Positions 754-24,190 of a DNA stretch of 64,000 nucleotides are shown in pieces. The first letter of the stretch is position 1; each line of letters starts with the position of its first letter. The translations under genes were made by a program, and so were the position numbers. The DNA is from Bacteriovoracaceae bacterium (GTDB lineage: Bacteria > Bdellovibrionota > Bacteriovoracia > Bacteriovoracales > Bacteriovoracaceae): positions 1-64,000 of the forward strand of contig JADHTQ010000002.1 in the NCBI GenBank assembly GCA_016784965.1, given 5' to 3'. The notes beneath the pieces are model-generated. The model was not told the origin of the DNA, searched no databases, and worked only from the letters and a program-made list of their open reading frames with translations.

Positions 754-2139
754 ATGTATACTCGACACTCATTGCAAACACTTGATATTTGGTACAATTC
801 CCCTATTCGGTCCCCATTAGTTATCAGAGGTGCTCGCCAGGTAGGTAAAACTCAATTAGTTCGTTCATTTTGTGAACAAAAATCGATCAATCTCATAGAG
901 ATCAACCTCGAGCAGATTAAGGTGCAAGAATTTTCAAAAGAAAGTTTTGATGTTAATAGGGCAATAAGTGAGATCTGTGCATTGACTGGGAAATCACTAT
1001 CGAAGAATACTCTTTTATTTATTGATGAAATTCAAGAACAGAAATTGGCCTATTCTCGACTTAGATTTTTTAAAGAGCAGGCCATTGAACTTGCTGTAGT
1101 CGCTGCGGGAAGTTTATTAGAGGTTAAGGTCGCACCTTTAAAATTGAGTTCTCCGGTTGGAAGAGTTGATTATCTTTATCTTGGACCAATGACTTTTAGT
1201 GAATTTTTAATGGCCCAAAAAGAGAATTTACTAATTGATATGCTTAATGATTTCTCCAAGTTTCCATCAAATATTATTCCTTTAACTGTCCACAATAAAA
1301 TTATTGATTATTACTATGATTATCTCTTGGTTGGAGGAATGCCTGAAGCTGTTAGTGCCTTCTTAAACAACAATAGAAGTTATAAATTAGCAAGAACTAT
1401 ACACAATAGAATTATTGCTTCATATAAAGAAGATATCCCCAAATATTCCACAGGTAAACAAGAACTGGTTTTACTTGAAGTATTTGATAAATTGGTTTTT
1501 CATATTGGCAAGAAAGTTAAGTTCTCAAATTATTCACAAGTAAAGTCTACCTACGTTTCTTCCGCCCTAAATTTATTAAGTGATGTTTTTCTCATACATA
1601 AAATATATTACTCTCATTGTAGTGAACTGCCGCTAAAATTAGGAGAAGATACCACGCTTTTTAAAACTTATTTTTTAGATGTTGGCCTTTATAACTCTTT
1701 ACTGGGTATTAACTTTAAGGATTTCTTTGCAAAAAGAGCTGATAATAATTCTTTAGGTAAAGGAGCAGTTGCTGAACAATTTTGTGCTCAACATTTGACC
1801 CTAGGGTCGGGAGTAAGTAAAAAGCCTCAGGTCAATTACTGGCTTAGTAATAAAAAGCGTGAAAGTGCAGAAATAGATTTTGTACTCTCTAAAGGAAACG
1901 TCATTACCCCCTTAGAAATAAAGTCAGGTAAAACTGGAACCTTAAAATCTTTGAGTCGTTTTATGTACGAAAAAAGAACTCAGAGCTTGGCACCAATGCG
2001 CTTGGACCTTACTTATCGCAAATTGCTGGAACAACAATTTTCAACAAAAGTAGTAAAACCTGATGAGACCAAGGAGGTCTCTTTTAGGCTCTCAAATATT
2101 CCTCTATATCAAATTGAATATATCAATAACATCCAGTGA
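754..2139 (+). CDS. AAA-type ATPase with DUF4143-like C-terminal nuclease fold
   Basis: The 461-residue protein has the layout of the COG1373/DUF4143 ATPase family. A P-loop G-A-R-Q-V-G-K-T lies near residues 25-32, and a Walker B L-L-F-I-D-E-I-Q-E near 88-96, followed by the family's A-A-G-S-L-L sensor and P-V-G-R-V segments. The C-terminal part carries A-E-I-D-F-V followed by L-E-I-K-S, the D...E-x-K pattern of a PD-(D/E)XK fold. The family is widespread, frequently transferred, and its cellular role is not established. No clear ribosome binding site precedes the ATG. Its 3' end overlaps the start of the next gene (GTGA), so the two are probably translationally coupled. Confidence 0.85.
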   Translation: MYTRHSLQTLDIWYNSPIRSPLVIRGARQVGKTQLVRSFCEQKSINLIEINLEQIKVQEFSKESFDVNRAISEICALTGKSLSKNTLLFIDEIQEQKLAYSRLRFFKEQAIELAVVAAGSLLEVKVAPLKLSSPVGRVDYLYLGPMTFSEFLMAQKENLLIDMLNDFSKFPSNIIPLTVHNKIIDYYYDYLLVGGMPEAVSAFLNNNRSYKLARTIHNRIIASYKEDIPKYSTGKQELVLLEVFDKLVFHIGKKVKFSNYSQVKSTYVSSALNLLSDVFLIHKIYYSHCSELPLKLGEDTTLFKTYFLDVGLYNSLLGINFKDFFAKRADNNSLGKGAVAEQFCAQHLTLGSGVSKKPQVNYWLSNKKRESAEIDFVLSKGNVITPLEIKSGKTGTLKSLSRFMYEKRTQSLAPMRLDLTYRKLLEQQFSTKVVKPDETKEVSFRLSNIPLYQIEYINNIQ

Positions 2140-3329
2140 AAAGCGAGAAAATGCCTATGTTAAAAATTAAATTAATTTTCATGTTAATACCATTTCTTGT
2201 TGGACTTTGGACAATGAGAGATCATATTTCTTTAGTGCTAAACAAAAAATTTAATAAAGAGATAAAGCTAACATCAAATCCAACGTCACAAACACACCCG
2301 CTTGTGATAGATGAAAAAATCGAAGACACTACTTTCTATAAACTGCCAGCAGGTATTGATAAAACACAGTTGTACAATATGGTGGAACTTGATGGCTCTT
2401 TGTGGCTTGGGACAGGAAAGGGTCTATTAAATATCAAAGAAGATAAAATTCATGTGTATAAACAATTTAGTGATTGGAAACATGAGTTTTTTCAAAATAT
2501 TGCAGTTATACCTCTAGGAATTGTTAGCACTGTTTTTGTCTCTCATAAAGAAACAAGCCGTGAATTTGCCGGAGTTTATATATTTGATACAAAAAAACAT
2601 AGCTGGCATAAAATAAGCTCGTCCTATCTAGGGCTACGAGTATGGCATAAAGGATATCTTTACCAAAGAGAAGGGGATCAAATTTTTAGAATAGACTCTA
2701 AAAAATCATGGAAAAAAGAGGCCCTAAAATTAGAAAACGATATATGTCGTGGATTATCAAGAAATTCCGATTTAAAAGTTATAGGAGACGATCTTTGGAT
2801 TACAGGAACATGGGTATCAAGTGGGACCAGGAGCAGAAGTGGCCGCACCAGTGGTTTCAAACAAGGTTGTGGAGTTATTCGCTATAATTTAAATAGTGGC
2901 AAAGAGACTTTTTATGGGGAAAAGACACTCCCACCCCAAACTAAAAAAATATTTTATGACCCTTGGGAACAAGCCGTTTACATTTCTGCTTATGAAAGTG
3001 GAAAATTAAGCGTTTATGATATTAAAAAAGATCAATGGAGTAGAAGAACTTTTTTAGGAAAAGGGCGTTCTGAATTCTTAAATTTTAGCAAAGATGAAAT
3101 TTGGCTATATGGCTCTGGGCACTGCTCTTTTTGTAAATACATCAGAGAAAGAAGGTCTTACTATAACGGCCCCAAGGGCTTTCCTAAAAAGTATTATCGC
3201 GACGAGATCTTCATAAACAAAAGAAACATCTGGAGCACATTCTATAAATCAGTATGGACAAAAGTTAATGGTAAAAATGAAATGTCTACTTTTTCTAAGC
3301 TTGGTCTTTATCAAGACAAAATAGAATAA
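2136..3329 (+). CDS. Membrane-anchored beta-propeller-like protein
   Basis: The GTG start overlaps the stop of the ATPase gene by four bases (GTGA); an in-frame ATG at 2151 is a second candidate. After a short basic lead there is one membrane segment (about residues 12-27). The remainder has recurring aromatic/glycine blades such as L-W-L-G-T-G-K-G-L and D-D-L-W-I-T-G, as in sensor-type propellers, so a periplasmic or extracellular propeller is likely. No enzymatic motif is visible. Coupling to an AAA/DUF4143 ATPase is unusual and may be accidental cargo or a real functional pair. I do not recognise the family. Confidence 0.6.
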   Translation: MKSEKMPMLKIKLIFMLIPFLVGLWTMRDHISLVLNKKFNKEIKLTSNPTSQTHPLVIDEKIEDTTFYKLPAGIDKTQLYNMVELDGSLWLGTGKGLLNIKEDKIHVYKQFSDWKHEFFQNIAVIPLGIVSTVFVSHKETSREFAGVYIFDTKKHSWHKISSSYLGLRVWHKGYLYQREGDQIFRIDSKKSWKKEALKLENDICRGLSRNSDLKVIGDDLWITGTWVSSGTRSRSGRTSGFKQGCGVIRYNLNSGKETFYGEKTLPPQTKKIFYDPWEQAVYISAYESGKLSVYDIKKDQWSRRTFLGKGRSEFLNFSKDEIWLYGSGHCSFCKYIRERRSYYNGPKGFPKKYYRDEIFINKRNIWSTFYKSVWTKVNGKNEMSTFSKLGLYQDKIE

Positions 3330-3343
3330 ATAATTCTATTTTG
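3317..3343. terminator. Bidirectional terminator-like hairpin between convergent genes
   Basis: CAAAATAGAAT (3317-3327) and ATTCTATTTTG (3333-3343) form a perfect 11-bp stem with a 5-base loop. It contains the stop codons of both convergent genes. The stem is AT-rich, so termination would rely on the A/T runs at each arm rather than a GC-rich stem. Confidence 0.45.
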
Positions 3344-4280
3344 ATCTTTCACAAACATTTCTTTTAATGATTCTACATTTCTCACAAACTTCTTTCATCT
3401 TACAAATATATTGGGCAATGAGCTCTTGTTTTTTTTGAGCTAAATATTTTGGAAAGTCCACACTAAATCCTTGAAAATAGTGAATTACAACCTCATAGTT
3501 TGAAAGAAGTGTCTGAAAATGATCTACTGTGTAGTGGTCAATTCGTTTGTAAAGCACAGTGTGTATGATCATAACCGCATAGGCGTTTCCAAACAATTCA
3601 GCTGCTATTTTTTCTCCAAACTGTTTTTGCAGTATGAAATAAAATTCTGACATTTGCAGTAATGTAATATTTATTTCGCTAGTAAATTCCCTCATATGGC
3701 CACTTGGTAGTTTTGCATTTACGTCAAGGTCTTTGACCTTATGTTTGGCCTTTACAACTACAGACTTTATATGTTCAACATGACGAGGGATCTCTTTTTG
3801 TGCTTGGGATGATAAAGTTTTAAAATGTTTAATGTTAACTAAATAGTCTTCGGCTTTTGTTGCAAGAAAACCCTCAACATCACTCTCAATTTCTCTCACA
3901 AGCTTCTTATTGCGTACTTGTATGGCACTTAGCTGTTCACTTCGCCTACTCTTTCTAGTTATGGCCTTAATGGTTTCTACTAAATGAGTAATCGTTCTAA
4001 GCGACAATAATTGGCTAAGATCACTTTGATGTTCCTGTAGGAGAGTTTGAAACTCATCTTGATAACAACTTAGAAGTCTTTGGGTCAAATTAAATTTTAT
4101 CAGAACCTTTGCTCTATCATATATTGATGAACCAAGAAAACTTGCTGAATCTTCTAGACACAATCCTGAGATGGCATTCATTTTATCGCGTGTTGAGGGA
4201 GAAGTTGAATCGGCATAAGAAGTAATGTCAAAAAATAAGAGGCTTAACATTGTTATTATTCTGATCATTTTTTTAGTCAT
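3336..4280 (-). CDS. Secreted helical protein of unknown function
   Basis: The 314-residue product starts with a basic K-K-M-I-R lead and a hydrophobic core ending in S-Y-A-D, a typical Sec signal peptide cleaved near residue 24. The mature part is mostly charged helix, with a cysteine-rich end (C-K-M-K-E-V-C-E-K-C then a further Cys) that could form disulfides in the periplasm. No known domain is recognised. It is transcribed alone toward the propeller gene; the promoter region holds a tandem 12-base repeat. Confidence 0.6.
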   Translation of the reverse strand: MTKKMIRIITMLSLLFFDITSYADSTSPSTRDKMNAISGLCLEDSASFLGSSIYDRAKVLIKFNLTQRLLSCYQDEFQTLLQEHQSDLSQLLSLRTITHLVETIKAITRKSRRSEQLSAIQVRNKKLVREIESDVEGFLATKAEDYLVNIKHFKTLSSQAQKEIPRHVEHIKSVVVKAKHKVKDLDVNAKLPSGHMREFTSEINITLLQMSEFYFILQKQFGEKIAAELFGNAYAVMIIHTVLYKRIDHYTVDHFQTLLSNYEVVIHYFQGFSVDFPKYLAQKKQELIAQYICKMKEVCEKCRIIKRNVCERSK

Positions 4281-4355
4281 ACCTTCTTCTCACACCAAAA
4301 AAGATCGAGATGAGAGTATAAGTTAAAAATGTTAAGAAAAAATGAAGAAAAGATT

Positions 4356-4378
4356 AAGTATGTACCTAAGTATGTACC
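4356..4378. repeat. Tandem 12-base repeat AAGTATGTACCT
   Basis: Two adjacent copies (the second lacking its last base) lie between the start of the secreted-protein gene (4280) and the end of the membrane-protein gene (4435). Each contains the palindromic core GTAC. It could be a paired regulator site for the gene at 3336-4280, but only the repeat itself is observed. Confidence 0.4.
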
Positions 4379-4434
4379 AGCAGACATGTGGGACTCAGCG
4401 CACCACTCACCTATGTACCCCAAACCAATACAAA

Positions 4435-5460
4435 CTATGCATGGGCCTTCAAAGCTGTTTTTATAGCGCTTTTGATTATAATTTTACAAACTCCGTTGGA
4501 TGTATGATAGCCACTATTTTCTGTTGTCTCTTGCCTTATAATCAACACCTCTACATCTGTTTGCTCTTGAAACTCAGTTATGATTGTTGTTTTAGGGATG
4601 ATTCCCAACCATTTGCTTATTCCCTCTGCCTTATATTCAGCATCTAATTCAAATCTATGTTTACTCAGACCAAAACCTTTTTTGGCAACAAGAACCATAT
4701 AAAAATATGGATAATCGGTACCTTTAACTTCATTTGCACACACTTGTCCCTGTATCCCGATAAAGTCCTTGGAAGCCGCTTTTAATTTAAGATTTAATTT
4801 AAGATCAAGGGGCACTTTAGCTTTTTTGCCACAAAGTTGCATTTGATATTCTACATCAACATACTTACTATATTTTTTCTTTATTAACTTAGCTAGCTTT
4901 TGGATTATGCTAAGTTTCAAAGAAAATGCGGGTGTTAACACTTGATCAATTCTTGTTACACCAGTAATAAATTGAGGAACCACAAGGATTAAAAAATCAA
5001 TGATAATAATTTTAATATATGGGAATACTGGTTCATCGACAAACCTGTAATATATTAAAGCCGGAAGACCTACAGCTAATACAAAGCAAAGCATTCCGGA
5101 ACCATTTGTTATATCAAAGTAGTTATTGTCCCATTGATTCATCTTTTTTTGCATCTGTTTTACTTCTACTAACTTTTGTTGTGTAACTTGAGTCCACTTT
5201 GCGTCTGGTTGAAATTTTCCAACGGCCACCCTGTTGTCATATCCCTTAATGAGCAAAAACATATTTCCAATAAACAACAATACATACCCCACGTAGGGCC
5301 CGGGTAAACGTTGTTGCATAAGTATGCCTATGACCATTAATCCAAAAGCTATAAAATAGCGGTTACTAGGTGCTATATTTCGCCCTATAAGAAAGGTTGA
5401 AACATTATTGGCAGGTCTCTTTTTAGATTTTTTTTGTACTTTTGACTTTACACTGTCCAT
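4435..5460 (-). CDS. Membrane protein, third gene of the ACHX/radical SAM locus
   Basis: The 341-residue protein has a very basic N-terminus. Hydrophobic segments follow at about residues 34-50, 55-70, 125-140 and 150-168, and then a long soluble C-terminal half with alternating strands (about 190-310). No enzyme motif is recognised. It overlaps the end of the radical SAM gene by 13 bases and has its own GAGAG-type ribosome binding site, so it is part of that operon. From context it could be a partner, transporter-like or sensor component for the modified tail protein, but this is inference. Confidence 0.65.
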   Translation of the reverse strand: MDSVKSKVQKKSKKRPANNVSTFLIGRNIAPSNRYFIAFGLMVIGILMQQRLPGPYVGYVLLFIGNMFLLIKGYDNRVAVGKFQPDAKWTQVTQQKLVEVKQMQKKMNQWDNNYFDITNGSGMLCFVLAVGLPALIYYRFVDEPVFPYIKIIIIDFLILVVPQFITGVTRIDQVLTPAFSLKLSIIQKLAKLIKKKYSKYVDVEYQMQLCGKKAKVPLDLKLNLKLKAASKDFIGIQGQVCANEVKGTDYPYFYMVLVAKKGFGLSKHRFELDAEYKAEGISKWLGIIPKTTIITEFQEQTDVEVLIIRQETTENSGYHTSNGVCKIIIKSAIKTALKAHA

Positions 5461-6788
5461 TGTAGACTCTCTCTTTTTGTTAATACATTTTGTGTATGTA
5501 ACTCATCTGTACCAATTTTATCCCAATAAAGTGGGCACGATCCGTGACACATAGAAAATTTCTCACATTCAAGACAAACTTCTGGGGCCAGCTGTTTCTT
5601 TCTAATTTTGGTTGCGACTGCTCCCTCCCAGACCTCACTAAAATCTTTGTGCAATATATTTCCCACGGGTTCAGGATAAGATGAACAGGGCAAGACGTCT
5701 CCGTTACAGGCTATCGACAACAATCCATCACAAGCACTACATCCTTTATTACCCAAATTGTTCGAAATGGTATTGTAAATACACATAGGTACCGGTGAAT
5801 ACCACATGAACTCCACACCCACATCTTTTGCATTTTGCTTAATTATATCTATATACTGCCCAATTTCAGAGTATTTAACTGTCAGTTCAGTATCTTTAGT
5901 AGCAGTTCCTACAGGTATCATCATATTCATACTAAAACGTTCAAGACCTAAGACATTTTTTACAAAACCTGGCATCTCTAAGCAGTTATCTACATTATGC
6001 GAAGAGAGGGTGGTGTTGGTGTGTGTATGTATATCGGCCTTAACAAGGTGTTTTATACCTGCCAAGGATCTTAAAAATGATTTATTTACCCCCGTAATTT
6101 TATCGTGAAGCCTAGTATAGGTCGCCTCCAAGCTAACTTGCGCGGAATCTAAACCACTTTCATGATATCTTTGTGCCAGCTCCCTAGTTAATAATGTTCC
6201 ATTTGTAATCAAGTTAACTCGCATTCCTAAATTCTTTGCAAAAGTTATGAGCTCAGGCAACTCTGTTAGTAGTGTCGGCTCACCTCCGGTGAAACTAATG
6301 GAAGGCACTTGGGAATCATGAAATATTTTGTAAATAACAGATTTCATCTGCTCAGTATTCATTTCCTCTTTGTCAGGCAACACTGAACAATTTGAATTTG
6401 CTCCTGCATAACAGAAATTACATTTTAAATTACATCGATAAGTAACTGCCAACTCTGAAAGTACTGGTAACTTAAATGGCCCTTCTTTAAATGGATGGAC
6501 ATCGATTGCCGGATGGCCAAATAGCTGTTTTTGATTTCCTTCGAGTTGATTTTTAAGAGCATGGAAGAACAAATAGATATCCTTTTTTTTTCTTTCATCA
6601 AGGTTTTTTGTAATAAGTTTGATCGAGGCACCATCTAGTAGAGACTTCAATATAGTTGCAGCATTAAGATTGAGCTTTTGTACTTGATTGGGTCTTTTGA
6701 TTAAAAGTAGATCTTCCATCCTCACAAAAATATAAGGTCTTACTTTTTCAATAAATTCATCTATCCAACTTAATTCTACAGTAGACAT
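5448..6788 (-). CDS. PqqD-like/radical SAM/SPASM maturase
   Basis: The 446-residue enzyme has a PqqD-like peptide-recognition domain (about residues 15-85). A radical SAM domain follows with the 4Fe-4S motif C119-x3-C123-x2-C126, and a G-G-E-P SAM-binding motif lies further on. The SPASM-type region (about 345-435) is rich in cysteines (C-x2-C, C-N-G-D-V-L-P-C, C-L-E-C, C-H-G-S-C). Enzymes with this layout modify ribosomally made peptides, typically making thioether or C-C crosslinks through auxiliary clusters. It starts 12 bases after the stop of the gene whose tail carries eight A-C-H-X units, which is the obvious substrate. A GAGGAAAAGG ribosome binding site supports the ATG start. Confidence 0.85.
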   Translation of the reverse strand: MSTVELSWIDEFIEKVRPYIFVRMEDLLLIKRPNQVQKLNLNAATILKSLLDGASIKLITKNLDERKKKDIYLFFHALKNQLEGNQKQLFGHPAIDVHPFKEGPFKLPVLSELAVTYRCNLKCNFCYAGANSNCSVLPDKEEMNTEQMKSVIYKIFHDSQVPSISFTGGEPTLLTELPELITFAKNLGMRVNLITNGTLLTRELAQRYHESGLDSAQVSLEATYTRLHDKITGVNKSFLRSLAGIKHLVKADIHTHTNTTLSSHNVDNCLEMPGFVKNVLGLERFSMNMMIPVGTATKDTELTVKYSEIGQYIDIIKQNAKDVGVEFMWYSPVPMCIYNTISNNLGNKGCSACDGLLSIACNGDVLPCSSYPEPVGNILHKDFSEVWEGAVATKIRKKQLAPEVCLECEKFSMCHGSCPLYWDKIGTDELHTQNVLTKRESLQWTV

Positions 6789-6800
6789 CCTTTTCCTCGA

Positions 6801-8408
6801 TTAATGTGACCCACCACTTACACATGCTGAATGACAAGCGCTATGACAAGCAGAGTGGCAAGCACTATGACAAGCGTTGTGGCAGGCATTATGGCAAGCA
6901 TCGTGACAAGCATTTAGGTTTGCAAGTGTATCCATTGAAAACCCTTGATTTATATGATCAACGTTTACATCAATATGTCTTTCATATGCATAAGGGTTCC
7001 TATTATAGTAATAAGTATTCCGATATCTTCTGTTAGAATTATGATACCAAAAATACCAAGCCTCATCTTTATCTTTGGAAGCTGAATTTTGTTGTTTGTT
7101 TTCTTTGAAGTGGACTGCTGTATAGTGATTAATCTTTTTATGATAGTAGCTTGTCGTTGCCTCAATATCTGCATCCCACGCTTTCTTTTTGATATTTTCA
7201 ACTATCCTATTCATGAAGTCTTCAAGCTCTTTTTGGTCAAGCAGACCATCATCTGCAAAGCAGTGATAAAGGAGTTGTTCATACTCTTCTGCATGAGTAA
7301 ATTTTGGTATTTTTTGTGGCGAAACTCGCAGAGGATCACTACTAACTAATTCAAAAATATCTTCACTAAGCATAGAGTCTATCATGGCACTTACTACTCT
7401 CTTTAACGGAAGCCCTATATAAAAGGCCGCCTCCAAAGTTGTCAGGTCCTTACAAACCTTACCTGGCACATGAAAACTTGATAGCTCAATCCTAGGGGGC
7501 GTCCAGTCTAGAGTATCCCAGTTAATTGTTTCCGCCTGTTTAAAGGCCCTATCCAGTGATTTTTTTTTCGATCTAAAAAACAGATAAAATGCTATCAGAA
7601 TGAGAAAGGGTAAAAAGTTGTAGAGAAAGTTATTGTTCATATTACTAAAAACTGCAAAAGCTGACTTGGCAGTTGGCAACTCGCCCAGATCAAACCACTC
7701 TTGGGGCATATAAAACTGTACCCTCATATGAAACCTATTTTCTGGATTTTCCTTATGAAATACCAAGTGAAGTCGATCATCATCTGCTCTTTGATAATCA
7801 ATTTTATAATTTTCGTTAACCCACTTTTCTGTTGGCACCAAGTCATTCTCATAAACATATTCCCTAATAGACTCAGACTCAATATCGGGGGGCAAAACCA
7901 AAGGCGTCATAACCCTTAATGTATAATGGTCCTGGTTGTGTCCTTCATCCCATTGTGCTGGCGACCAATTAAACACTACCAGTTTTCTACCATCAGCATC
8001 TGTTGTTTTATCAACATATCCAGCGTTATAAAAGTTTGCCGTAAAAAAGAAAAAATAGGTCAGATTTCCTCTACGTACTCCCTGCCCGTCAGCTAAAACA
8101 ATATCCCACTTTTTTCCTCTCACTTTTTTTATTGAAAGATCAAACCTGCCGCCGTCAGAAGCCACAGCAAATGATTCATCTTTTAAAAATGAAGGATATA
8201 TAAACTTCTCATCCATTTGAAAGTAAAAACCATGGAGCTCCCCCGAAACTACTCGCCAGTCAACTGCATATTTTATAAGTGCCGACCCGTCTTCCTTTAG
8301 CTCAACGTCGGTTTCAACAAAATTTATTGTCCCCCTTCCTCCATAACAGAAAACTCCATAGAATAGACATAAAATGAGGATGATAACTTTCGATATATTA
8401 GAAGTCAT
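6801..8408 (-). CDS. Membrane protein with Cys-rich (ACHX)8 tail, probable maturase substrate
   Basis: The ATG at 8408 follows AAGGTG by five bases and gives a signal peptide (about residues 1-22); a longer TTG start at 8471 lacks a ribosome binding site. The 535-residue product has a ~240-residue exported domain like DUF2207 proteins, one membrane segment (about 263-283), and a cytoplasmic region. The segment around L-T-T-L-E-A-A-F-Y-I-G-L-P resembles the TIGR04222 'near-uncomplex' domain. It ends in eight tetrads, A-C-H-D/N/S seven times then A-C-V-S, plus G-G-S-H. With one membrane span the tail faces the cytoplasm, where the adjacent radical SAM enzyme acts. It is first in the three-gene operon. 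The modification is inferred. Confidence 0.75.
   Translation of the reverse strand: MTSNISKVIILILCLFYGVFCYGGRGTINFVETDVELKEDGSALIKYAVDWRVVSGELHGFYFQMDEKFIYPSFLKDESFAVASDGGRFDLSIKKVRGKKWDIVLADGQGVRRGNLTYFFFFTANFYNAGYVDKTTDADGRKLVVFNWSPAQWDEGHNQDHYTLRVMTPLVLPPDIESESIREYVYENDLVPTEKWVNENYKIDYQRADDDRLHLVFHKENPENRFHMRVQFYMPQEWFDLGELPTAKSAFAVFSNMNNNFLYNFLPFLILIAFYLFFRSKKKSLDRAFKQAETINWDTLDWTPPRIELSSFHVPGKVCKDLTTLEAAFYIGLPLKRVVSAMIDSMLSEDIFELVSSDPLRVSPQKIPKFTHAEEYEQLLYHCFADDGLLDQKELEDFMNRIVENIKKKAWDADIEATTSYYHKKINHYTAVHFKENKQQNSASKDKDEAWYFWYHNSNRRYRNTYYYNRNPYAYERHIDVNVDHINQGFSMDTLANLNACHDACHNACHNACHSACHSACHSACHSACVSGGSH
6816..6911 (-). repeat. Eight 12-base coding repeats (Ala-Cys-His-X)
   Basis: Eight consecutive 12-base units encode the A-C-H-X tetrads. 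The DNA units differ at synonymous sites: GCT, GCC and GCA for Ala; TGT and TGC for Cys; CAT and CAC for His; several Ser codons. The amino-acid pattern is nevertheless nearly invariant. This is the signature of a repeat kept by selection on the protein rather than a recent slippage expansion. Confidence 0.85.
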
Positions 8409-8505
8409 TGAGTCACCTTGGTTTAAATAAATATATATAGCTATTAATATGATAAGTGCTGATATTACCAATTAAAAGAGAAAAAGATCAAGAAACCTAT
8501 TTTGT

Positions 8506-8600
8506 GATTTGGCCAGTTATAATATATATATAATCCGCCAAATCTATTTAAATATTGCAAGATTTGGCGGATTATATTATTATTATTGTGAGCCAAATCT
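8506..8600 (+). promoter_or_regulatory. Nested inverted-repeat operator before the second ATPase gene
   Basis: A perfect 18-bp inverted repeat (8528-8545 and 8560-8577) surrounds a 14-base spacer. Its core GATTTGGC occurs two more times, at 8506-8513 in direct and 8592-8599 in inverted orientation. The four cores alternate in direction, with like-oriented cores exactly 55 bases apart (8506/8561 and 8537/8592). This is a strong candidate operator for autoregulation of the ATPase gene at 8621. It also lies about 100 bases upstream of the divergent ACHX operon and could influence it. Confidence 0.6.
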
Positions 8601-8620
8601 GTTAAGAAAGGGCAAGACAA

Positions 8621-10084
8621 ATGGAAAAAAGCATTATTGGGAGAGAGAAATCAAAAAAGATATTGAGGGATATTTTGAACTCAGACAACTCAGAATTCCT
8701 TGCTATATATGGTCGTCGGCGTATTGGAAAAACTTTTTTAGTCAGAGAAATGTTTAGAGATATTAGAAACATTCTTTATATGGAGGTTACTGGTAAAAAA
8801 GGGGGAAGTATTGATGACCAGATTGATCATTTTTGCCAACAAATTGAAAAAACCTTTACTCTAGTTATCCCTATACAAAGGCCAAAAAACTGGAAGAGAG
8901 CATTTCTGATTTTGGATGAATTAGTTAAACAACAAAGTAAAAAATCAAAGATCGTGATTTTTCTTGATGAGCTTCCCTGGCTAGCATCTCCAAAGTCAGG
9001 AGTGTTGGGAGCTATAGATCACCTATGGAATAGCGAATGGACTCAAGATAATCGTGTAAAGCTCATTATTTGTGGTTCTGCCGCTTCATGGATGCTTAAT
9101 AAAGTTATAAATGATAAAGGAGGCTTGCATAACCGATTAAGCGAAAGAATAAACCTCATGCCCCTTTCCTTGATGGAAACAAAGATCTATCTTGAGAAAA
9201 AGCAAAAAGTTCGATTGAACACAAAAGACCTTATTACCGTTTACATGGCCATAGGTGGAGTACCTCTGTACTTAGATCATGTAAAGAGTGGGCAAACGGC
9301 CGTGGAAATTATAAACAATCTATGTTTTTGTGGTACAGGCATTCTATTTGATGAGTTTGACCTTATTTTCAATGCTTTATTTAACGAATCACAAAAGCAT
9401 GTAGAGATTATTAAGCAAGTCACAAAAAAGAGGAAGGGAATTACTAGAAAAGAGTTGCTTTCATGTCTGAAGCTTGAGTCAGGGGGAGGCTTTAATAAGA
9501 TTTTAAACGAGTTAGTGGCTTCAGGTTTTGTTGATATCTATACTCCCTATGGAAAAAGCAAGAAAGATTCATTAATTAGAGTCAATGATGAGTATTGTTA
9601 TTTCTATCTAAAATGGATTAATCCAAAGAAAAACAGTATTAAAAGGACGAAGAATTATTGGCATACACATGGTGTTGGTAGAAGATTTGAATCTTGGGCA
9701 GGCTATGCCTTTGAAGCCGTAATGTTAAAGCATGCTTACGAAGTATCAGTGGCCCTAGGTATTGAAAAGTTAGTATTGGAAGTAGGATCTTGGAGTTATA
9801 TATCAAAATCTAGAGAAGAAAAAGGCGCGCAAATTGATATGCTTTTTGATAGAAGTGATGAAAATATCACTATTGTAGAAATTAAATTTTCAGTGAATCA
9901 ATTTGTAATTGGGAAAAAATATGCTGATGAACTAGAAAACAAGCTTGTTACATTTAAAAGGAAAGTGAATAGAAAAAAGGGGCAACTCCTAGTCATGTTG
10001 ACTATAAATGGAGTCCAAAAAAATGCATTTTATAACAAACTCGTAGACAGAGAAGTTCTCGCAGCAGAACTATTAAGTGTATAA
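8621..10084 (+). CDS. AAA-type ATPase with DUF234-like C-terminus
   Basis: The 487-residue protein matches the PF01637/DUF234 type of ATPase, common in archaea and sporadic in bacteria. It has a P-loop Y-G-R-R-R-I-G-K-T near residues 31-39 and a Walker B I-V-I-F-L-D-E-L-P-W near 110-119. A C-S-A-A-S-W-M sensor and a winged-helix-like segment (about 270-320) follow. The C-terminal A-Q-I-D-M-L-F-D ... I-V-E-I-K-F-S has the PD-(D/E)XK pattern. The family's biological role is unsettled. It is a different family from the ATPase at 754, yet has the same overall plan and is also preceded by a repeat array. It has no operon partner, and transfer is likely. Confidence 0.85.
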   Translation: MEKSIIGREKSKKILRDILNSDNSEFLAIYGRRRIGKTFLVREMFRDIRNILYMEVTGKKGGSIDDQIDHFCQQIEKTFTLVIPIQRPKNWKRAFLILDELVKQQSKKSKIVIFLDELPWLASPKSGVLGAIDHLWNSEWTQDNRVKLIICGSAASWMLNKVINDKGGLHNRLSERINLMPLSLMETKIYLEKKQKVRLNTKDLITVYMAIGGVPLYLDHVKSGQTAVEIINNLCFCGTGILFDEFDLIFNALFNESQKHVEIIKQVTKKRKGITRKELLSCLKLESGGGFNKILNELVASGFVDIYTPYGKSKKDSLIRVNDEYCYFYLKWINPKKNSIKRTKNYWHTHGVGRRFESWAGYAFEAVMLKHAYEVSVALGIEKLVLEVGSWSYISKSREEKGAQIDMLFDRSDENITIVEIKFSVNQFVIGKKYADELENKLVTFKRKVNRKKGQLLVMLTINGVQKNAFYNKLVDREVLAAELLSV

Positions 10085-10136
10085 GTTCAGACTTATAAAT
10101 TTATAAAATAATTACAATTAGGGGCAGTCTTGAATC

Positions 10137-11138
10137 CTAGAAGTATACAGAAAAAACGATATCTGCTTTGTCTCGATCGTTATCTTCATCTTTGTTTGGG
10201 TCAACGATCCTGCTAAAGCGTGCACCAACAGAATATCTCTCGCTCATTTGATAATTAACTCCAAGAGTAATGATGCCATGTAAGTTGACCTCATCTGTAC
10301 CAAGCTCATTTCTTGCAACATAGGGACCAACGCCCGCTAGTGTAGACCATTCATCAGTCAGTGGTAACTCATAGTACACCATAGCAGCAACACCTTCACG
10401 ATCAACTCGCTCATCGACACCTTCATCTATGTAAGCTAAGGCCACTTCGATATTTTCAGATATCTGCTTTCCTGCTTCAATTTGAAAACCCTGAGCTGAA
10501 GTAGTTCCTCCATGATTTGTTTTATAGTGGCTACCAATGAGTGATAATCTAAACATTTTAGGATCATCTGATGAACGATCAATTCCTTCTCCATCAAAAT
10601 CTTGTCCAATGCCAATCATAAGTGATGTTGTTTTAAACTCTCCTGGTATCTCTACATGATCTAATTCTGTTCTAATATGAAGTCCTGGGTACAATTCATT
10701 TAAATAATATAGGGCCGCTACAGAGGCCAATACTCCTAAGTTTTTATCATCAACTTCTACACCATCTATGTCGGTTGTATTCATGCTAAAGTATGGACCA
10801 GCACTCAACTCAATTTTTAAATCCTCGTTTACGTCAACCCTATAAGCCCCAAGTATCCCAAAACCGTCGCGATGATCTTTTTCCCCGCGATCATTTTCGG
10901 GGTGACCTTCGTTTGCATGTACAAACTGGACACTTATATGTTCATTGATTTGTTGACCAATTCGGATGTTAAAAACGGGCATGCTGGTGCGATCACCTTT
11001 GCTTGTCATCCCATTTCCTAAAACGGCAGAAACATAAACGTTTGATCGCCTATTTGTGTCTTCTTCATTGTCATCACCATAAGTGAGAAATGATACGCCC
11101 AAAAGTAGCACTAGAAAAATTAACTTCAACTTGTTCAT
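10137..11138 (-). CDS. Outer-membrane beta-barrel with internal duplication
   Basis: A signal peptide ends near T-Y-G-D (about residue 22). The 333-residue protein then contains two similar ~140-residue halves (about 35-180 and 195-333). Each has an I-x-x-G-x-Q/K-I-x-E-x-I-x-V start, an E-G turn, a G-P-Y strand and a Y-x-L/M-x-E/S strand before its end. Alternating amphipathic strands and the terminal Phe are typical of outer-membrane barrels. A GGAGG ribosome binding site lies eight bases before the ATG. No substrate or enzymatic role can be read. It is monocistronic. Confidence 0.75.
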   Translation of the reverse strand: MNKLKLIFLVLLLGVSFLTYGDDNEEDTNRRSNVYVSAVLGNGMTSKGDRTSMPVFNIRIGQQINEHISVQFVHANEGHPENDRGEKDHRDGFGILGAYRVDVNEDLKIELSAGPYFSMNTTDIDGVEVDDKNLGVLASVAALYYLNELYPGLHIRTELDHVEIPGEFKTTSLMIGIGQDFDGEGIDRSSDDPKMFRLSLIGSHYKTNHGGTTSAQGFQIEAGKQISENIEVALAYIDEGVDERVDREGVAAMVYYELPLTDEWSTLAGVGPYVARNELGTDEVNLHGIITLGVNYQMSERYSVGARFSRIVDPNKDEDNDRDKADIVFSVYF

Positions 11139-17949: not shown

Positions 17950-19053
17950 ATGAAAAAGTATTTGCTCTTCAATTCATTAATTACAACAATCACCACTTTG
18001 TTGGTCCTGCTGACCTCTAACTATGCATACGCCAAAAACCTAACCATCCAAAAAGAATCATCCTTCTACGCGTTTTCAGTCGACAGTGCTAAAAATGAAG
18101 CTCGTATTTTCGGGATAGATTTTAAATTTAAGGTTAACTACGGAATCAGCGATAACCTTACCGCCTCATTAAAGGCCGGCGTCGTCCTTGAGACAGGGAG
18201 CCAAAAATCCTTAAATGTCGACGAGTTTGCGCCAGGTTATCGGATAAAGCTAGATGAAGGTTACTTGCGATGGCAGCCATTATCTCAAGTTGAGCTAAAG
18301 TTTGGAGGCATCAATCAAAAGGAATATGGTGTTCCAATATTTTTAGACTCAGTAGTCTTTGTAGGTGCAAAGCAAAAAATATCAGTACTAAAATTCGATA
18401 ATTTCCTAGATACATATCTTTCTGCCCAACAAGCAATTCCAAGTAACCATGCTCTGTCAACGAGACTTGGCGCAGTAATTGAGGGCACACCTTCTTTATT
18501 TATAGAATCTTTAGGGATTAACTTAAAAACCAGATACTTACAACTAACAACAGAGGGCTCTTATTTTTATTTTAGCAACCTATACGGTAATGTGGCCAAA
18601 ACCTCTGGGTTTATGGGAAATTCCGTTACAGGAACTGAAAATGATGACACTGCCAAATTTCTTTATAACTTCCAAGGTATCGTCCTAAATGCAGTTGCAA
18701 CTATCTATATCAACGACGAACTCAACATTGACGTCCATGGTAGCTACTTAAACAATACTGAAGCACCAGTCAACAAAGCAATGGGATATATTGCAGGTGC
18801 AGGTCTTGTATATAATAAGATCTATTCCTCTTTTGACATCTTTTATAATGAGCAAGATAGCTCCCCAGCATATTACAACAGCTCCAAATTCGGTCACAAT
18901 AATAGAGAGGGCATCTCCTTGATATTAGGACATAAGTGGCAAAATGATTTAATGGATTTAAGCCTACAATATGTTGATTCTAAAGTTATAAATATAAGTG
19001 CACATCAATCAGACGCGAAAATTATAAGCCTAACCTTTGCAAAGGAGTTTTAA
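17950..19053 (+). CDS. Outer-membrane beta-barrel, first gene of the lipoprotein operon
   Basis: The 367-residue protein has a signal peptide ending near A-Y-A-K (about residue 28). A porin-like series of amphipathic strands follows, including G-Y-R-I-K-L-D-E-G-Y-L-R-W and F-G-G-I-N-Q-K-E-Y-G, and it ends in F-A-K-E-F. The terminal Phe is the usual Bam recognition residue. It follows a sigma-54-type promoter, and its TAA overlaps the ATG of the next lipoprotein gene (TAATG). The coupling suggests the barrel and the lipoproteins act together at the outer membrane. Confidence 0.7.
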   Translation: MKKYLLFNSLITTITTLLVLLTSNYAYAKNLTIQKESSFYAFSVDSAKNEARIFGIDFKFKVNYGISDNLTASLKAGVVLETGSQKSLNVDEFAPGYRIKLDEGYLRWQPLSQVELKFGGINQKEYGVPIFLDSVVFVGAKQKISVLKFDNFLDTYLSAQQAIPSNHALSTRLGAVIEGTPSLFIESLGINLKTRYLQLTTEGSYFYFSNLYGNVAKTSGFMGNSVTGTENDDTAKFLYNFQGIVLNAVATIYINDELNIDVHGSYLNNTEAPVNKAMGYIAGAGLVYNKIYSSFDIFYNEQDSSPAYYNSSKFGHNNREGISLILGHKWQNDLMDLSLQYVDSKVINISAHQSDAKIISLTFAKEF

Positions 19054-21425
19054 TGAAGTTGAGTTGGTTACTCATATTCATATTGCCAATCTTGCTGCTG
19101 TTGACTAGCTGTAACCGCGAACAGGAGGATGTTCTATCTTCTTCAATATTTTTCAACAAAGTCACAATTTCAAAAGGAACCTACTTACCACAATACGAGT
19201 TAAAAGATAAAATAGTGAGGTATCGAAAGGCCCACTTTAAAGTTTGTCTCAATGATCCAGTCAGTAAAAAGCCAATAGCCCATTATGGATTTAAGGCTTC
19301 TTTAACTCTTAAACAGGCAAAACCAGCAATTGTCATAGACCAAAAAATTACAAACTTTAACCAGCGCTTTGAGCCTTTACTTACTGACTCTTCAGGCTGC
19401 CTGGAATTTTATAAAATCATTCAATTTAATACTACAAACTATAGCGATTGGTCCCGGTACCTGCTAACTATAAAAGACGGCGGTGCTGGTATTTACAAAG
19501 ATAACACTATGACAAGAAATGTCTGTGTTAATGGTCGCATTAATAACGAAGATTTTGGCATAGACTCCGATGCACCAGGAAATTCGTGTCCTGAGGCAGA
19601 AGCTTCTTCACCACAATTGTACATAAGTGATGTGGAGTATAAATACTTAGAAAATGTTACCAACTCCGTGAAATTAAATAAGCACATGCATCTAGCATTA
19701 AAAAAGCGTGTAGAAATCACACTTAAACCAAGAATGCTTGTCGCTAATGATTTTAATGGCAAAGAGTCTGATCGAAGCGTGCATAAAGGTAAATACCATA
19801 TTAAAGTTTTATTCTTTACCCCAAAAAAAGCCGGTGCTCTATTTGATAAACAGGATTTAATAAATTCCAGCTCTAGTGATTTTGAATTTTTAACTGGGGC
19901 AATTTCAACTGATGCCCAAAAAATTAGAAATGGGGAAGTTGTCTTCAATATTGACCTACCTATACTTTATGGGGATTACTCTAAGATGATGACCAGAGGG
20001 CGTATCTTAATTGAAATGTATCCAAGCCAAGATAAGTTGCGGCACAAATCACATCAAATTAGCTACTTGCCAGCAATTTCCATTGCAAACTTCACAGGCG
20101 TTGACAACTCAAAACAGACAATACGAACTTTCATTACTGACTCAGAACAAAAGCAAAAAGTTGTAAATCAAATAAGTGACTACATGACTCACTTTATAAA
20201 GACAAAAATTAAAACCTTAGAGCCTGATACAAACCTCGAATCTCCACGCAAAATGTACTCTGAGTTTTTAAACTTAGACCTCAAAAGGAATAATATCCGC
20301 AGTAAAGTGGTAGAATGGAGCATTGATAAATTTAATTCTAAATTAGAACCGGTTTATAAGGTTCTTGATACTAAAATTTTTAATGCCTCAAAGTCACATG
20401 CAGATTATAAGCTTAGCGCTAAGGATGTTGATGCAATAGTGAGTTTAGATCCTTCAAAAAGTGATGCATCTGTAAGTCTTAATACATTACAGGCCAAATT
20501 CTGTAAACTCTTTGATAAAAGGCCAATCCAGTTAATATTTCACCATACAAGTTATACTGGAAGATACAAAAAGTGCCTCGAAAACCCAAGCAAGTTTTTG
20601 AATATCTCAGCGACAAAACACATTGAAAAAATTCACTCTATTAAAAAAGTCGTTGAAGATAGACCTAGATATTTAAATACTGGTGATTCATATATGGCAA
20701 ACGCTAGTAGGCAGGCGTTGATCGAAAATGGTACTAGATTAGTTAAAGGGCTAACCTTGGTTGGTGCGACAGCTAGCCTTTCAAAAGCTTTGCGCAAGCT
20801 ACCTTCTCTTGTTGGATCCCTCACGGGTGGTATTCTTGGAACATATGATGTTTATACAACTGAAAGTCAACTGGAGTCCTTAGGTGAAACTTCCCGTATT
20901 TTTCAAGGCATAACCTTGCGTTATGATGTTAGTGGTCTATATATTAAATTTCAAGCCGACACTGCAAGTTGTGTATATGTCTCTAAAAAAACTAAACCAA
21001 AAGTAAAAAACTCCTCTTCGAGGTGGTATAGACGAACTTACGCAAAGCCTGAAAAACCAAACAACATTTACAAGATCTGTATTGAAAATAAAGCTGAGCA
21101 ATTGACTGAGAAGTGGCATTTTATCCACGACACCAACCGTTCAAAAAATAATGGAATGTTTAAAGATCCATATGCCGTTGATGCTGTCAGCAGTAAGGTC
21201 ATCCGAGGTGAAGCTGTATTTTTTGATTTTAGACGAAGGTGTGAAGACAAGAAAAAGAAAGTCGTGTTCAAAATGGCCAGAAACAACGAATTAGCCAATA
21301 ACTACATAGAAGCTTATGGTGGTACAAACAAGTCAACCATAAAGTCTTTAAAAGAACATAACGACAATTCTTTTCCAGGCTTATTTATTCCATTTATTGG
21401 GTCTATGTCCCCTGAATCACTATAA
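19053..21425 (+). CDS. Large lipoprotein, paralogue 1 of 3
   Basis: The 790-residue protein starts at a TAATG overlap with the barrel gene. It has the lipobox L-L-T-S-C, so it should be lipid-anchored. It shares with the next two genes a conserved block (about residues 110-170): a G-C-L/F residue pair, Y-S-D-W-S, a D-x-x-x-G-x-Y segment and D-F-G-I-D. All three also share a K-L-C-K-L region near the middle and an end reading F-P-G-L/M-I-L/F-P-F/Y. No known domain is recognised. Cysteines in the C-terminal third (S-C-V-Y, I-C-I-E) may pair. Confidence 0.7.
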   Translation: MKLSWLLIFILPILLLLTSCNREQEDVLSSSIFFNKVTISKGTYLPQYELKDKIVRYRKAHFKVCLNDPVSKKPIAHYGFKASLTLKQAKPAIVIDQKITNFNQRFEPLLTDSSGCLEFYKIIQFNTTNYSDWSRYLLTIKDGGAGIYKDNTMTRNVCVNGRINNEDFGIDSDAPGNSCPEAEASSPQLYISDVEYKYLENVTNSVKLNKHMHLALKKRVEITLKPRMLVANDFNGKESDRSVHKGKYHIKVLFFTPKKAGALFDKQDLINSSSSDFEFLTGAISTDAQKIRNGEVVFNIDLPILYGDYSKMMTRGRILIEMYPSQDKLRHKSHQISYLPAISIANFTGVDNSKQTIRTFITDSEQKQKVVNQISDYMTHFIKTKIKTLEPDTNLESPRKMYSEFLNLDLKRNNIRSKVVEWSIDKFNSKLEPVYKVLDTKIFNASKSHADYKLSAKDVDAIVSLDPSKSDASVSLNTLQAKFCKLFDKRPIQLIFHHTSYTGRYKKCLENPSKFLNISATKHIEKIHSIKKVVEDRPRYLNTGDSYMANASRQALIENGTRLVKGLTLVGATASLSKALRKLPSLVGSLTGGILGTYDVYTTESQLESLGETSRIFQGITLRYDVSGLYIKFQADTASCVYVSKKTKPKVKNSSSRWYRRTYAKPEKPNNIYKICIENKAEQLTEKWHFIHDTNRSKNNGMFKDPYAVDAVSSKVIRGEAVFFDFRRRCEDKKKKVVFKMARNNELANNYIEAYGGTNKSTIKSLKEHNDNSFPGLFIPFIGSMSPESL

Positions 21426-21555
21426 AAATAAACCATGTAAATCCTACACGGTGCATTGCATCGCGAGAAAACAAATGTTAAATTATACTATGCTAAGAAG
21501 GAATGCCCTCTCAAATTACTTTTAGATGAGGCATATACTAATTAGGAGATAAAGC

Positions 21556-24027
21556 TTGAAGAGATTTTTTTACCTGGCCATTCTACTTCTAAATTTCATC
21601 TTACTATTTAGTTGTAGAAACGAAGAAACGGCCACCAGTGATCTCTTGCAGTATGGATCATCTTCTTCATCACTCATTGATAGAGTTACAATAGTACCAG
21701 CTTCACTTGTAGAAAAAAGCTCATACAGTGCATCGCCAATTCGTCACCTTTCTGTAAATTTTGAGATTTGCTTGATGGACCCTCAGGCAAAACAACCAAT
21801 CAAGCATTATGATTTTGGTGTTTCCTTAGAAACCATCAAAAGGAACCCATACCTTAGCGCAAATGAGACGTTAAATACCGAAAATAGACGTTTCACATCC
21901 GCCACAACTGATGGCCGAGGGTGTTTAGTAGTAGACAAAACGATCGATTATAACATCACCAGCTACAGTGATTGGTCAGAATATAAGGTCAAACTACAAG
22001 ATTTTGAGGGAGGTGTTTACAAGGGCATTGATATCTCCAGAACCGTTTATATCAATCCACATATAAAAAATAAAGATTTCGGGATAGATCAAAAAAGGAA
22101 GTTGCCCCCCAGAACTTTTAAAATCAGTCCTCGTATTCAAATACCAAAATTAACAGTCACACACCTTGGCGATGACGAATCAAGCTATAAAATGAATAAG
22201 TATCTTCACCTTGGTTTGGATAAAGTATTTAATATCCATTTTAACCCCGCAATAAAGCGCGCCAATAGCTACGATGGAATCAAGCCAAACGATCTATTGT
22301 TAATTGGTAAATACTCTGTCAGGACCGTTGTCTTAACACCTAAACATTCAAAAGTTAAAGCAACAAGAAAAAATATTGTTAATGCTATCGCTGGAAAAGG
22401 AAAAAACTACACAATTCTAACAACTTCAACGACAAAGCTTGAAAATGAAGACGATTCCGCTTCAAATTTGATAAACGGATTAGCATCGGCAGAATTGGCC
22501 TTTCCTCTGTACCATGCTGAGCTTTCGGACCTAGCAAACAACAACATACTTGTTTTAGAGTTTGCTCCAATCGTTGATAGCAGAGTTGACAAAAGCAGAC
22601 AATCTCAAATTACCCCCCAAATCGTTTATATACCGTTTAGTTACAATGGTTTTCGAGAAAACTTCACAAGAGTATCAAAATCGTTGATACATATGCCCCA
22701 AGATCACAATAACGCTCACGCAGTGACAGAGCTTTTAAGAAACGCCATTAGAACTAGAACCAATACAAAAGCTTTTAAATATTTTAAAAAATCAATATCA
22801 TCTTATGAAATTTACAAACAAGAGATAAAAAAGAAACATGTTTTTGTTTCCCATGAGTCTGAAGAGGACACTTTTTTTACAAGAAAGGAATTCAACATTA
22901 AATGGCAAAGATTCCGAGAAGAAGTAGTCTTGCCACAAAGAGCATATAGGCCAGTTATGATGCCTCTTGTCCTTTATGCTGCAAATAAGTTATATGAAGA
23001 AAAAAAGCCAGAAGAGAGTATTACCCATGATGAGATGAATGATCTCGTCCACAACAACCCCAGTCACTTAACACTACAAAAACTTTGTAAACTATTCATA
23101 GCCCCCCCCATACAATATGACAAACACGATGCTAAAAACCGCGCAACTCTGGATCAATATATGTTCTGTATTGAAAACCCCCAGAAGTTTTTTAGCATAA
23201 CCCCCACCAGGCACACAATGAAGGTGCAGCAAGATTACCCTGTCACCAAAGTAAAAGATGAGGACGGTGTAATGTCTATTGGAGACACTTTTTTCATCAT
23301 GCACAACCACAACTTTGTTCAAGAAAAAGGGGATCGAAATATCATTGGGATAAACCCCGCAAGCTTTTCAACAAGAAGGAACCTCGTATCCTCTGCCTTT
23401 AAAATTATCAAACCTGCCGCCATATTAAGTGCTCTGGATTTTGGTGTATATTTAAGATCAGAAACTTATCATGTAGATGCTCATCAAAAAGTTATCTCAG
23501 AGGTAGGTAGAAATTATATAGATGCTTCGATTAAACATAAGTACCTAGAGCAGCGATTTGAGTTCAAAGCAAGTGTAAAAAAGTGTGTCCTTCTCACCAG
23601 TACAGCACTAGCTAATTATAGAATTTTTAAGAAAGAAAAAGTTTTTCACATGTGTAAAGACAATGACGAAAAACAAGTAATGACAGAGAACTTCTACTAC
23701 CTAACCGGAAAAAGATCTTCTGCCCCATATGACAGTGGTGCCAGAGTTATTAGGGGAAGTGATAACTTTCAACTCCTAAAAAATGTTGAAGAACAAAAAG
23801 GAAGGATCATTCTTCTAAATAAAGTAAAGGATACAAAGATCACTGGCCGCTTTCAACAATATCTTAAGCAGGGACCAGTGGATAGCACAAGCCTTGATAA
23901 AGGCAATGGATCATTTCCAGGCCTTATTCTACCATATTACCAAAACAGTATTATCCAACAAAATAAAACAGAGTTTCTGGCCCCTTTCCCCTACTCCGAC
24001 TACTTAGAAAAGTGGGCAAACAGATAG
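21556..24027 (+). CDS. Large lipoprotein, paralogue 2 of 3
   Basis: The TTG start is supported by TAGGAG seven bases upstream. The 823-residue product has lipobox L-L-F-S-C. It matches paralogue 3 more closely than paralogue 1: both carry Y-I-N-P-H-I/L, D-E-M-N/D-N/D-L-V-H near the middle, G-I-N-P near residue 590, A-R-V/A-I-R-G near 735, and G-S-F-P-G near the end. The 130-base gap before it holds no obvious sigma-54 box, so it may be read from the upstream promoter or a weak local one. Function is unknown. Confidence 0.7.
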   Translation: MKRFFYLAILLLNFILLFSCRNEETATSDLLQYGSSSSSLIDRVTIVPASLVEKSSYSASPIRHLSVNFEICLMDPQAKQPIKHYDFGVSLETIKRNPYLSANETLNTENRRFTSATTDGRGCLVVDKTIDYNITSYSDWSEYKVKLQDFEGGVYKGIDISRTVYINPHIKNKDFGIDQKRKLPPRTFKISPRIQIPKLTVTHLGDDESSYKMNKYLHLGLDKVFNIHFNPAIKRANSYDGIKPNDLLLIGKYSVRTVVLTPKHSKVKATRKNIVNAIAGKGKNYTILTTSTTKLENEDDSASNLINGLASAELAFPLYHAELSDLANNNILVLEFAPIVDSRVDKSRQSQITPQIVYIPFSYNGFRENFTRVSKSLIHMPQDHNNAHAVTELLRNAIRTRTNTKAFKYFKKSISSYEIYKQEIKKKHVFVSHESEEDTFFTRKEFNIKWQRFREEVVLPQRAYRPVMMPLVLYAANKLYEEKKPEESITHDEMNDLVHNNPSHLTLQKLCKLFIAPPIQYDKHDAKNRATLDQYMFCIENPQKFFSITPTRHTMKVQQDYPVTKVKDEDGVMSIGDTFFIMHNHNFVQEKGDRNIIGINPASFSTRRNLVSSAFKIIKPAAILSALDFGVYLRSETYHVDAHQKVISEVGRNYIDASIKHKYLEQRFEFKASVKKCVLLTSTALANYRIFKKEKVFHMCKDNDEKQVMTENFYYLTGKRSSAPYDSGARVIRGSDNFQLLKNVEEQKGRIILLNKVKDTKITGRFQQYLKQGPVDSTSLDKGNGSFPGLILPYYQNSIIQQNKTEFLAPFPYSDYLEKWANR

Positions 24028-24190
24028 AATCTTTAAGTTTAATGAGTTTTTCACACTTCATCCAAATATAAATAATACATGGTACGTAAATTTTACACTC
24101 CTATAGAAACCATCATATATTCATGCTATATTCAGCTCATAACTCATGCTTATTAGCACTTTGATACTACAGACAAAGGACAAGCTCTTA

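Follow-up and report, generated by a model that had tools for sequence, protein, structure and literature searches.

Which reaction would a radical S-adenosylmethionine (SAM)/SPASM enzyme carry out when its gene directly follows that of a membrane protein ending in an evenly spaced row of cysteine and histidine residues? The question is raised by a minus-strand operon of three genes in the open reading frame (ORF) list of a 64,000-nt stretch of contig JADHTQ010000002.1 (Bacteriovoracaceae bacterium); we call this whole stretch the window, and all coordinates are positions in it. The operon encodes the membrane protein (hereafter the tail protein; 535 amino acids, 8408-6801), the radical SAM/SPASM enzyme (446 amino acids, 6788-5448), and a protein with four transmembrane (TM) helices (341 amino acids, 5460-4435), just as an initial annotation, made from the sequence alone, had described them. 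A conserved array, strict pairing with the enzyme, the operon order, and co-inheritance of the two genes are all observed. We consider that the operon probably encodes a membrane-bound system resembling those of ribosomally synthesized and post-translationally modified peptides (RiPPs), in which the tail is modified in place, with thioethers as the most likely product.

The C-terminal array and its repeat unit

The tail protein ends in NLN-ACHD-ACHN-ACHN-ACHS-ACHS-ACHS-ACHS-ACVS-GGSH (repeat tail at 6804-6911, minus strand), and the eight Cys tetrads described in the initial annotation are present: the Cys residues run from 501 to 529, one per four residues, with a His after seven of them. The array is found once in the window genome. 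Its repeats mix TGT with TGC, CAT with CAC, and AGY with TCN Ser codons, and the same mixture extends to the relatives described below, in which AGY and TCN Ser codons occur together in 84 of 99 tails and both Cys codons plus both His codons in 85 of 99. Because synonymous codons are mixed in most tails, the coding sequences indicate that the pattern is kept by selection on the protein and not by recent DNA duplication. Chance or a recent DNA-level repeat expansion was rejected as an origin of the array, since the codons are too mixed and the amino acid pattern recurs over approximately 30 phyla.

A regular array of this kind can be read in three registers, ACHX, CHXA, and HXAC. The A-C-H-X unit of the initial annotation was right in its count of seven His, but H-X-A-C proved the better reading: among the His residues of distinct tails, 613 of 617 have a Cys at +3, versus 574 of 617 with a Cys at -1. 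Moreover, the H-X-A-C unit is intact (twice as H-X-N-C) in all 50 irregular intervals, in which four or five residues separate neighboring Cys (for example, CVHDAC, CVSHDAC, CYVHTAC, and CFAHSAC). Since H-X-A-C is what survives these register breaks, we read it as the unit, in which the His most likely works together with the Cys at +3. Ala precedes 758 of the 809 non-first Cys, and variants of the form [F/Y]-X-G-C occur on the N-terminal flank, upstream of the array.

Distribution of the tail family

Because the protein itself is too divergent, relatives were sought with a DNA pattern for (CHXA)3C, with third positions free, over GTDB genome contigs; the window tail protein used as a query over genome contigs returned no relatives, its peptide patterns being too close to its own sequence. 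The pattern scan gave at least 115 stretches, at least 100 of which encode proteins with the same C-terminal tail, after chance or low-complexity matches without an SAC tail (e.g., L010, L036, L037, L038, L040, L055, L079, and L105) had been left out. Among the matches listed, and judged by record titles, the tail proteins belong to approximately 30 phylum-level groups of both bacteria (Spirochaetota, Planctomycetota, Desulfobacterota, Chloroflexota, Bacillota, Myxococcota, Acidobacteriota, WOR-3, and Aminicenantes, among others) and archaea (including Thorarchaeota, Heimdallarchaeota, and Thermoproteota), although most of the genomes are metagenome bins and single taxonomic placements may be wrong. 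Nearly all tails carry 8 to 13 Cys, and they end mostly in VSGG(S/A)H or R, or in VS(R/S/N)F. In pairwise comparisons, the median identity of the tails is 85% and that of the remaining sequence 28%. Such conservation of the tail between phyla is extreme for a low-complexity segment; the family has a dedicated enzyme, yet no curated model. In a sample of 291 genomes from the window's own phylum, a real match to the tail protein was found only in the window genome, besides one chance match to a coiled coil.

Pairing of the tail with the radical SAM/SPASM enzyme

Among the matches listed, 85 tail loci had at least 1.5 kb of downstream sequence. The enzyme gene, with products 35-52% identical to the window enzyme, was present in 79 of these, directly downstream on the same strand in 76 and divergently oriented in 3 (Thorarchaeota), and in the remaining 6 the enzyme was encoded elsewhere in the genome (E from 1e-82 to 1e-116). 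We also searched separately for tail and enzyme in phylum samples drawn evenly and not by adjacency. In Spirochaetota (enzyme threshold E<=1e-60), the enzyme occurred in 11 of 198 genomes and the tail in the identical 11 (3 of them known beforehand), with the genes adjacent in each; in Chloroflexota, the enzyme occurred in 3 of 151 genomes and the tail in the identical 3 (1 known beforehand). In the own-phylum sample, the window copy was the only close enzyme homologue, the rest being general radical SAM proteins (E from 1e-20 to 1e-23). Distances between tail-protein bodies and between enzymes were correlated (Mantel r=0.74), and none of 2000 permutations reached as high a value. The pairing postulated in the initial annotation thus recurs throughout, and tail homologues that consistently lack the enzyme, named beforehand as evidence against it, were not found. 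That enzyme and tail belong together is strongly supported by these genomic patterns, and the case for an enzyme-substrate pair is about as strong as genomics allows. A dedicated enzyme gene strictly tied to an encoded substrate gene, as is characteristic of RiPP-like systems, is what we find here, and the enzyme very probably modifies the tail.

Some genomes contain two tail arrays, for example, at G318:C185:6177-6275 and 10366-10464, or at loci L012 and L018 (both in genome G291). Since G291 has two arrays but one close enzyme homologue, the enzyme appears able to act in trans on a second tail protein. At L134 (G296:C217:3172-4440), the enzyme homologue has one in-frame TGA, which may be a sequencing error, a pseudogene, or recoding.

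The enzyme tree splits into two clean classes (support 100/96) that differ in tail style and in the third gene. Class A has the four-TM protein of the window as the third gene (45 loci), and class B has a coiled-coil protein of approximately 415 amino acids (14 loci). The coiled-coil protein takes the place of the four-TM protein at L011, L047, L058, L062, L066, L076, L080, and L123, and seven class B loci encode an additional small membrane protein (approximately 180 amino acids) with a CxxC...CxxC zinc-ribbon-like end. In the Thorarchaeota loci (L009, L061, and L114), a small conserved protein of approximately 130 amino acids is encoded between the divergent enzyme and tail-protein genes, and in WOR-3 and Aminicenantes its gene precedes the tail gene. 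No conserved peptidase, exporter, metal transporter, or regulator was found in the neighborhoods of the tail loci.

Features of the enzyme

The enzyme (5448-6788, minus strand) is a radical SAM/SPASM protein, as first proposed, with Radical_SAM at 88.9 bits and SPASM at 38.3 bits, both above the Pfam cut-offs. Its core CX3CX2C motif (residues 119-126) supplies the cluster ligands Cys 119, 123, and 126, which are invariant in 58 homologues, and SPASM was detected in 57 of the 58 family enzymes. The PqqD domain (PF05402; the RiPP recognition element [RRE] family), which the initial annotation had assigned to this enzyme, was found by Pfam in 20 of the 58 (best 6.6e-11), but not in the window's own copy, whose N-terminus is a candidate RRE (PqqD-like) region. 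A further seven Cys outside the core (336, 350, 368, 405, 408, 414, and 418) are invariant, one short of the eight required for two fully Cys-ligated auxiliary clusters. Thioether-forming enzymes have classically been proposed to bind the Cys of the substrate at an open cluster site; the seven Cys would leave room for such a site, which fits this proposal without proving it. The nearest solved structures to the enzyme profile include the peptide modifiers SkfB (6efn), PqqE (6c8v), SuiB (5v1q), and CteB (5wgg). Curated NCBIfam and Pfam models recognized the enzyme by its generic radical SAM and SPASM domains only, and PADLOC matches to anti-phage viperins were discarded because they reflected the common radical SAM core only.

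Domains and predicted topology of the tail protein

The hydropathy of the window tail protein (6801-8408, minus strand) shows a signal-like or TM segment at residues 5-23 and one TM helix at 260-278 followed by FRSKKK. Because one predicted TM helix is followed by a basic stretch, the tail is predicted to be cytoplasmic, in agreement with the single span and cytoplasmic tail suggested at the outset: the first half of the protein should be extracytoplasmic, and the second half, including the tail, should lie inside. Among 46 relatives, Lys plus Arg counts beyond the last TM helix (C-terminal side) were higher than on the other side in 27 and lower in 10, which gives this predicted topology moderate support. 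The order of the parts would be a DUF2207-like beta ectodomain (approximately 25-240), the TM helix, a TIGR04222-like cytoplasmic domain (approximately 305-435), a variable linker, and the tail with its seven H-X-A-C units and GGSH end.

The trimmed window protein matched DUF2207 (PF09972) with 18.4 bits (E=0.0027), short of the gathering score of 24.4, and the match covered the ectodomain over almost its full length; 19 of 49 relatives matched DUF2207 (best E 4.1e-7). TIGR04222 was matched by 13 of the 49, over the TM helix and cytoplasmic domain (residues 268-385 in the best case), with a best score of 32.9 bits; no match was found in the window protein or in its genome. Membership of TIGR04222 was therefore dropped, the curated cut-off of 43 bits not being reached. 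The kinship with DUF2207/TIGR04222 that the initial annotation had recognized is, on these profile matches, real but remote, lying below both cut-offs, and the window tail protein exceeds the cut-off of none of the curated NCBIfam or Pfam models. An AlphaFold model built from the family alignment had a mean pLDDT of 83.8 and a confident beta ectodomain, which resembles the N-terminal domain of M1 aminopeptidases and ribophorin I (E ~1e-7; that the ectodomain is the aligned part was judged from the aligned length). Residues 487-514, which include the start of the array, were disordered (pLDDT <50), and the last five residues were more confident.

Comparison with known systems

The closest precedent is a group of TIGR04222 membrane proteins with Cys-containing, Ser/Gly-rich tails, which have been proposed as MNIO substrates and occur beside bufferins (Microb Genom 2025, PMC12452194). 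Like the present family, these have a TIGR04222-type domain, a Cys-rich C-terminal tail, and a gene adjoining that of a peptide-modifying enzyme. In contrast, their enzyme is an MNIO and not a radical SAM/SPASM protein, their Cys are scattered and not set in a strict H-X-A-C array, they have several TM helices and a periplasmic tail where we predict one TM helix and a cytoplasmic tail, and the window protein fails the TIGR04222 model. A Pfam scan of the seven ORFs of 2136-11138 detected no MNIO gene (DUF692, MbnB_TglH_ChrH). The tail family is thus a counterpart of the MNIO-TIGR04222 proteins that differs in its enzyme class, in its tail grammar, and probably in the side of the membrane on which the tail lies. 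With this precedent for fusing a Cys-rich tail, and with a family spread over some 30 phyla, the idea of a one-off new fusion was not borne out.

Among ranthipeptides, PMC8326336 describes a Cbeta thioether between Asn20 and Cys23 of NxxcA from Streptococcus (enzyme NxxcB) and six Cys-Asp thioether bridges in freyrasin. Like the present enzyme, NxxcB is a SPASM protein, and its product has the residue-to-Cys(+3) geometry that we propose for H-X-A-C. As described there, NxxcA is, unlike the tail protein, a small free peptide with a single link and an Asn acceptor, and the chemistry is inferred in our case. Freyrasin and the SCIFF ranthipeptides likewise have one SPASM enzyme for a Cys-rich peptide and form thioethers, but their acceptors are Asp or Thr and their substrates small free peptides; the agreement with ranthipeptides lies in the H-X-A-C spacing only. 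The CXXX-repeat targets (TIGR04117) and their maturase (TIGR04115) resemble the present pair in that the target ends in a Cys repeat of period 4 and is encoded next to a radical SAM enzyme, but these targets are peptides of approximately 100 amino acids. TIGR04117 matched 14 of 49 tail proteins weakly, the proteins scored against it stayed at 10-16 bits, far below the cut-off of 50 (10.3 in the window protein), TIGR04115 (cut-off 350 bits) had no match in the window genome at E<=1e-5, and membership of this family was dropped. The parallel with 'ACGX-repeat' peptides drawn in the initial annotation holds for the A-C-x-X repeat with a SPASM enzyme, but the enzyme scored 82.7 bits against the TIGR04340 cut-off of 400, and membership was likewise rejected. 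In the open literature, which does not include most subscription journals, no paper was found on the string ACHSACHSAC or on DUF2207 paired with radical SAM enzymes, and searches for the repeat, HxxC, TIGR04222, DUF2207, and CXXX repeats returned the MNIO precedent and general papers only.

Proposed modification and alternative explanations

We propose that the enzyme would bind the tail protein, probably via its RRE-type N-terminal domain, and would modify the H-X-A-C array in the cytoplasm. Because the neighborhood has no conserved peptidase or exporter gene, the modified tail is probably neither cut off nor exported but remains part of the membrane protein, and modification in place is likely. 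Radical SAM/SPASM enzymes acting on Cys-rich C-termini are often thioether makers. The H-X-A-C unit, the spacing of NxxcA, the multiplicity of freyrasin, and the stabilization of a His Cbeta radical by the ring lead us to propose one thioether per unit, from the Cys sulphur to a carbon (Cbeta favored) of the His three residues upstream; we put this bond forward with reserve, as one that may well be wrong. In the window protein this would mean seven bridges, and its first Cys (C501) would remain free. The modified tail would then be a stiff Cys/His unit at the cytoplasmic face that responds to metal or redox state, and one TM helix would connect it to the DUF2207-like domain outside; such a metal or redox role is plausible but less likely than not.

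Several points weigh against this proposal. The chemistry of the bond cannot be read from the sequence; the Ala at -1 is also nearly invariant and fits other bonds, such as one from the His ring to Ala; and unmodified H-X-X-C is an ordinary metal-ligand spacing as well. Because Phe or Tyr stands at -3 of some N-flank Cys, with Gly at -1, an aromatic residue rather than imidazole may be what matters. The PqqD domain of the window enzyme is below Pfam detection, although the enzyme aligns to family members from about residue 5, and the tail-only second copy L012 means that adjacency is not obligatory.

As an alternative, a C-C link of the cyclophane or triceptide type, joining the His ring to the Ala at +2 (H-X-A), would leave the Cys free as a row of metal ligands; it would suit the fixed relation of H, X, and A, the frequency of Ala before Cys, and the fact that His and Tyr are reported triceptide residues, Tyr also occurring at -3 here (CYSAC). 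However, it leaves the Cys, the most invariant residue, unexplained, the Gly at -1 in [F/Y]-X-G-C has no Cbeta, and Ala would be unusual as the third triceptide residue; we regard this link as unlikely. Similarly improbable is an array that buffers or senses metal (Cu, Zn, Fe, or Fe-S) by direct binding to its Cys and His, with the enzyme making a minor adjustment or modifying part of the tail only; it would work as the copper-binding bufferins do, but anchored in the membrane and in the cytoplasm. With eight Cys and seven His in approximately 30 residues, the tail would suit such a purpose, and TIGR04222 proteins with Cys-rich tails have been proposed as MNIO substrates beside bufferins (PMC12452194), whereas no metal transporter or regulator is conserved in the neighborhoods, and the strict period and cross-phylum near-identity exceed those usual in metal buffers.

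An ordinary RiPP, in which the membrane protein would act as an oversized leader and the tail would be the core peptide, to be cleaved, exported, and active outside, is very unlikely: a C-terminal tail and an enzyme family with an RRE-type domain do resemble RiPP precursor systems, but no peptidase or exporter gene is conserved, the leader would be a protein with a signal peptide, an ectodomain, and a TM helix whose tail is predicted to be cytoplasmic, and almost no core variation over some 30 phyla is unlike secreted weapons or signals. It is still less probable that the tail is not a substrate and serves as a docking or cluster-carrying extension that keeps the enzyme at the membrane while it acts on something else. 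An obligate complex would also give perfect co-occurrence, but 8-13 evenly spaced Cys and His are more than docking requires, and a radical SAM/SPASM enzyme with a PqqD-type domain beside a Cys-rich C-terminus is the standard enzyme-substrate arrangement.

The third gene and flanking regions

The third gene (4435-5460, minus strand) encodes four TM helices and a cytoplasmic alpha/beta domain (approximately 200-340; pLDDT 86.9). The initial annotation's description of an unfamiliar membrane protein still applies, as the product had no Pfam or NCBIfam relative and no fold match in the PDB (best E 0.05); for the same reasons, a protease or exporter was dropped as its identity. The role of this protein may be to keep tail and enzyme at the membrane. 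The tail-protein gene is separated from the enzyme gene by 12 nt, and the enzyme gene overlaps the third gene by 13 nt; because of this spacing and overlap, translation of the three genes is probably coupled.

An inverted repeat at 8506-8599 (40-nt arms, 80% complementary, 14 nt apart) lies between the tail-protein gene and a divergent AAA ATPase gene that starts at 8621, and is possibly a regulatory or terminator element. The ATPase itself (ATPase_2/DUF234; 8621-10084, other strand) adjoins the operon and gives no sign of belonging to the system. Farther away, at 19053-26629, three consecutive large ORFs (790, 823, and 827 amino acids) look like tandem paralogous secreted lipoproteins, with similar starts and common ends (DNSFPGLFIPF / GNGSFPGLILPY / GDGSFPGMILPF).

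Implications

The system is probably an apparently undescribed and ancient kind of protein modification. In its fullest form, our proposal is an ancient bacterial and archaeal membrane signaling or metal-handling protein that bears a genetically encoded rod of multiple His-Cys thioethers, which its own radical SAM enzyme would build in place. The rod would be a lasting structural or redox part of a receptor-like protein and not a released product, with a Cys-to-His(-3) link undescribed so far; this whole picture is possible but speculative. From the H-X-A-C reading follows a precise and testable claim: in the window protein, seven bridges would form and the first Cys would stay free. If the enzyme modifies the tail, radical SAM peptide chemistry would reach beyond small peptides to integral membrane proteins in bacteria as well as Asgard archaea and would then point to a housekeeping role. 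The finding also joins two lines, that of the DUF2207/TIGR04222 proteins and that of tail modification by MNIO versus radical SAM enzymes, and joining them could reveal what these membrane proteins sense or carry.

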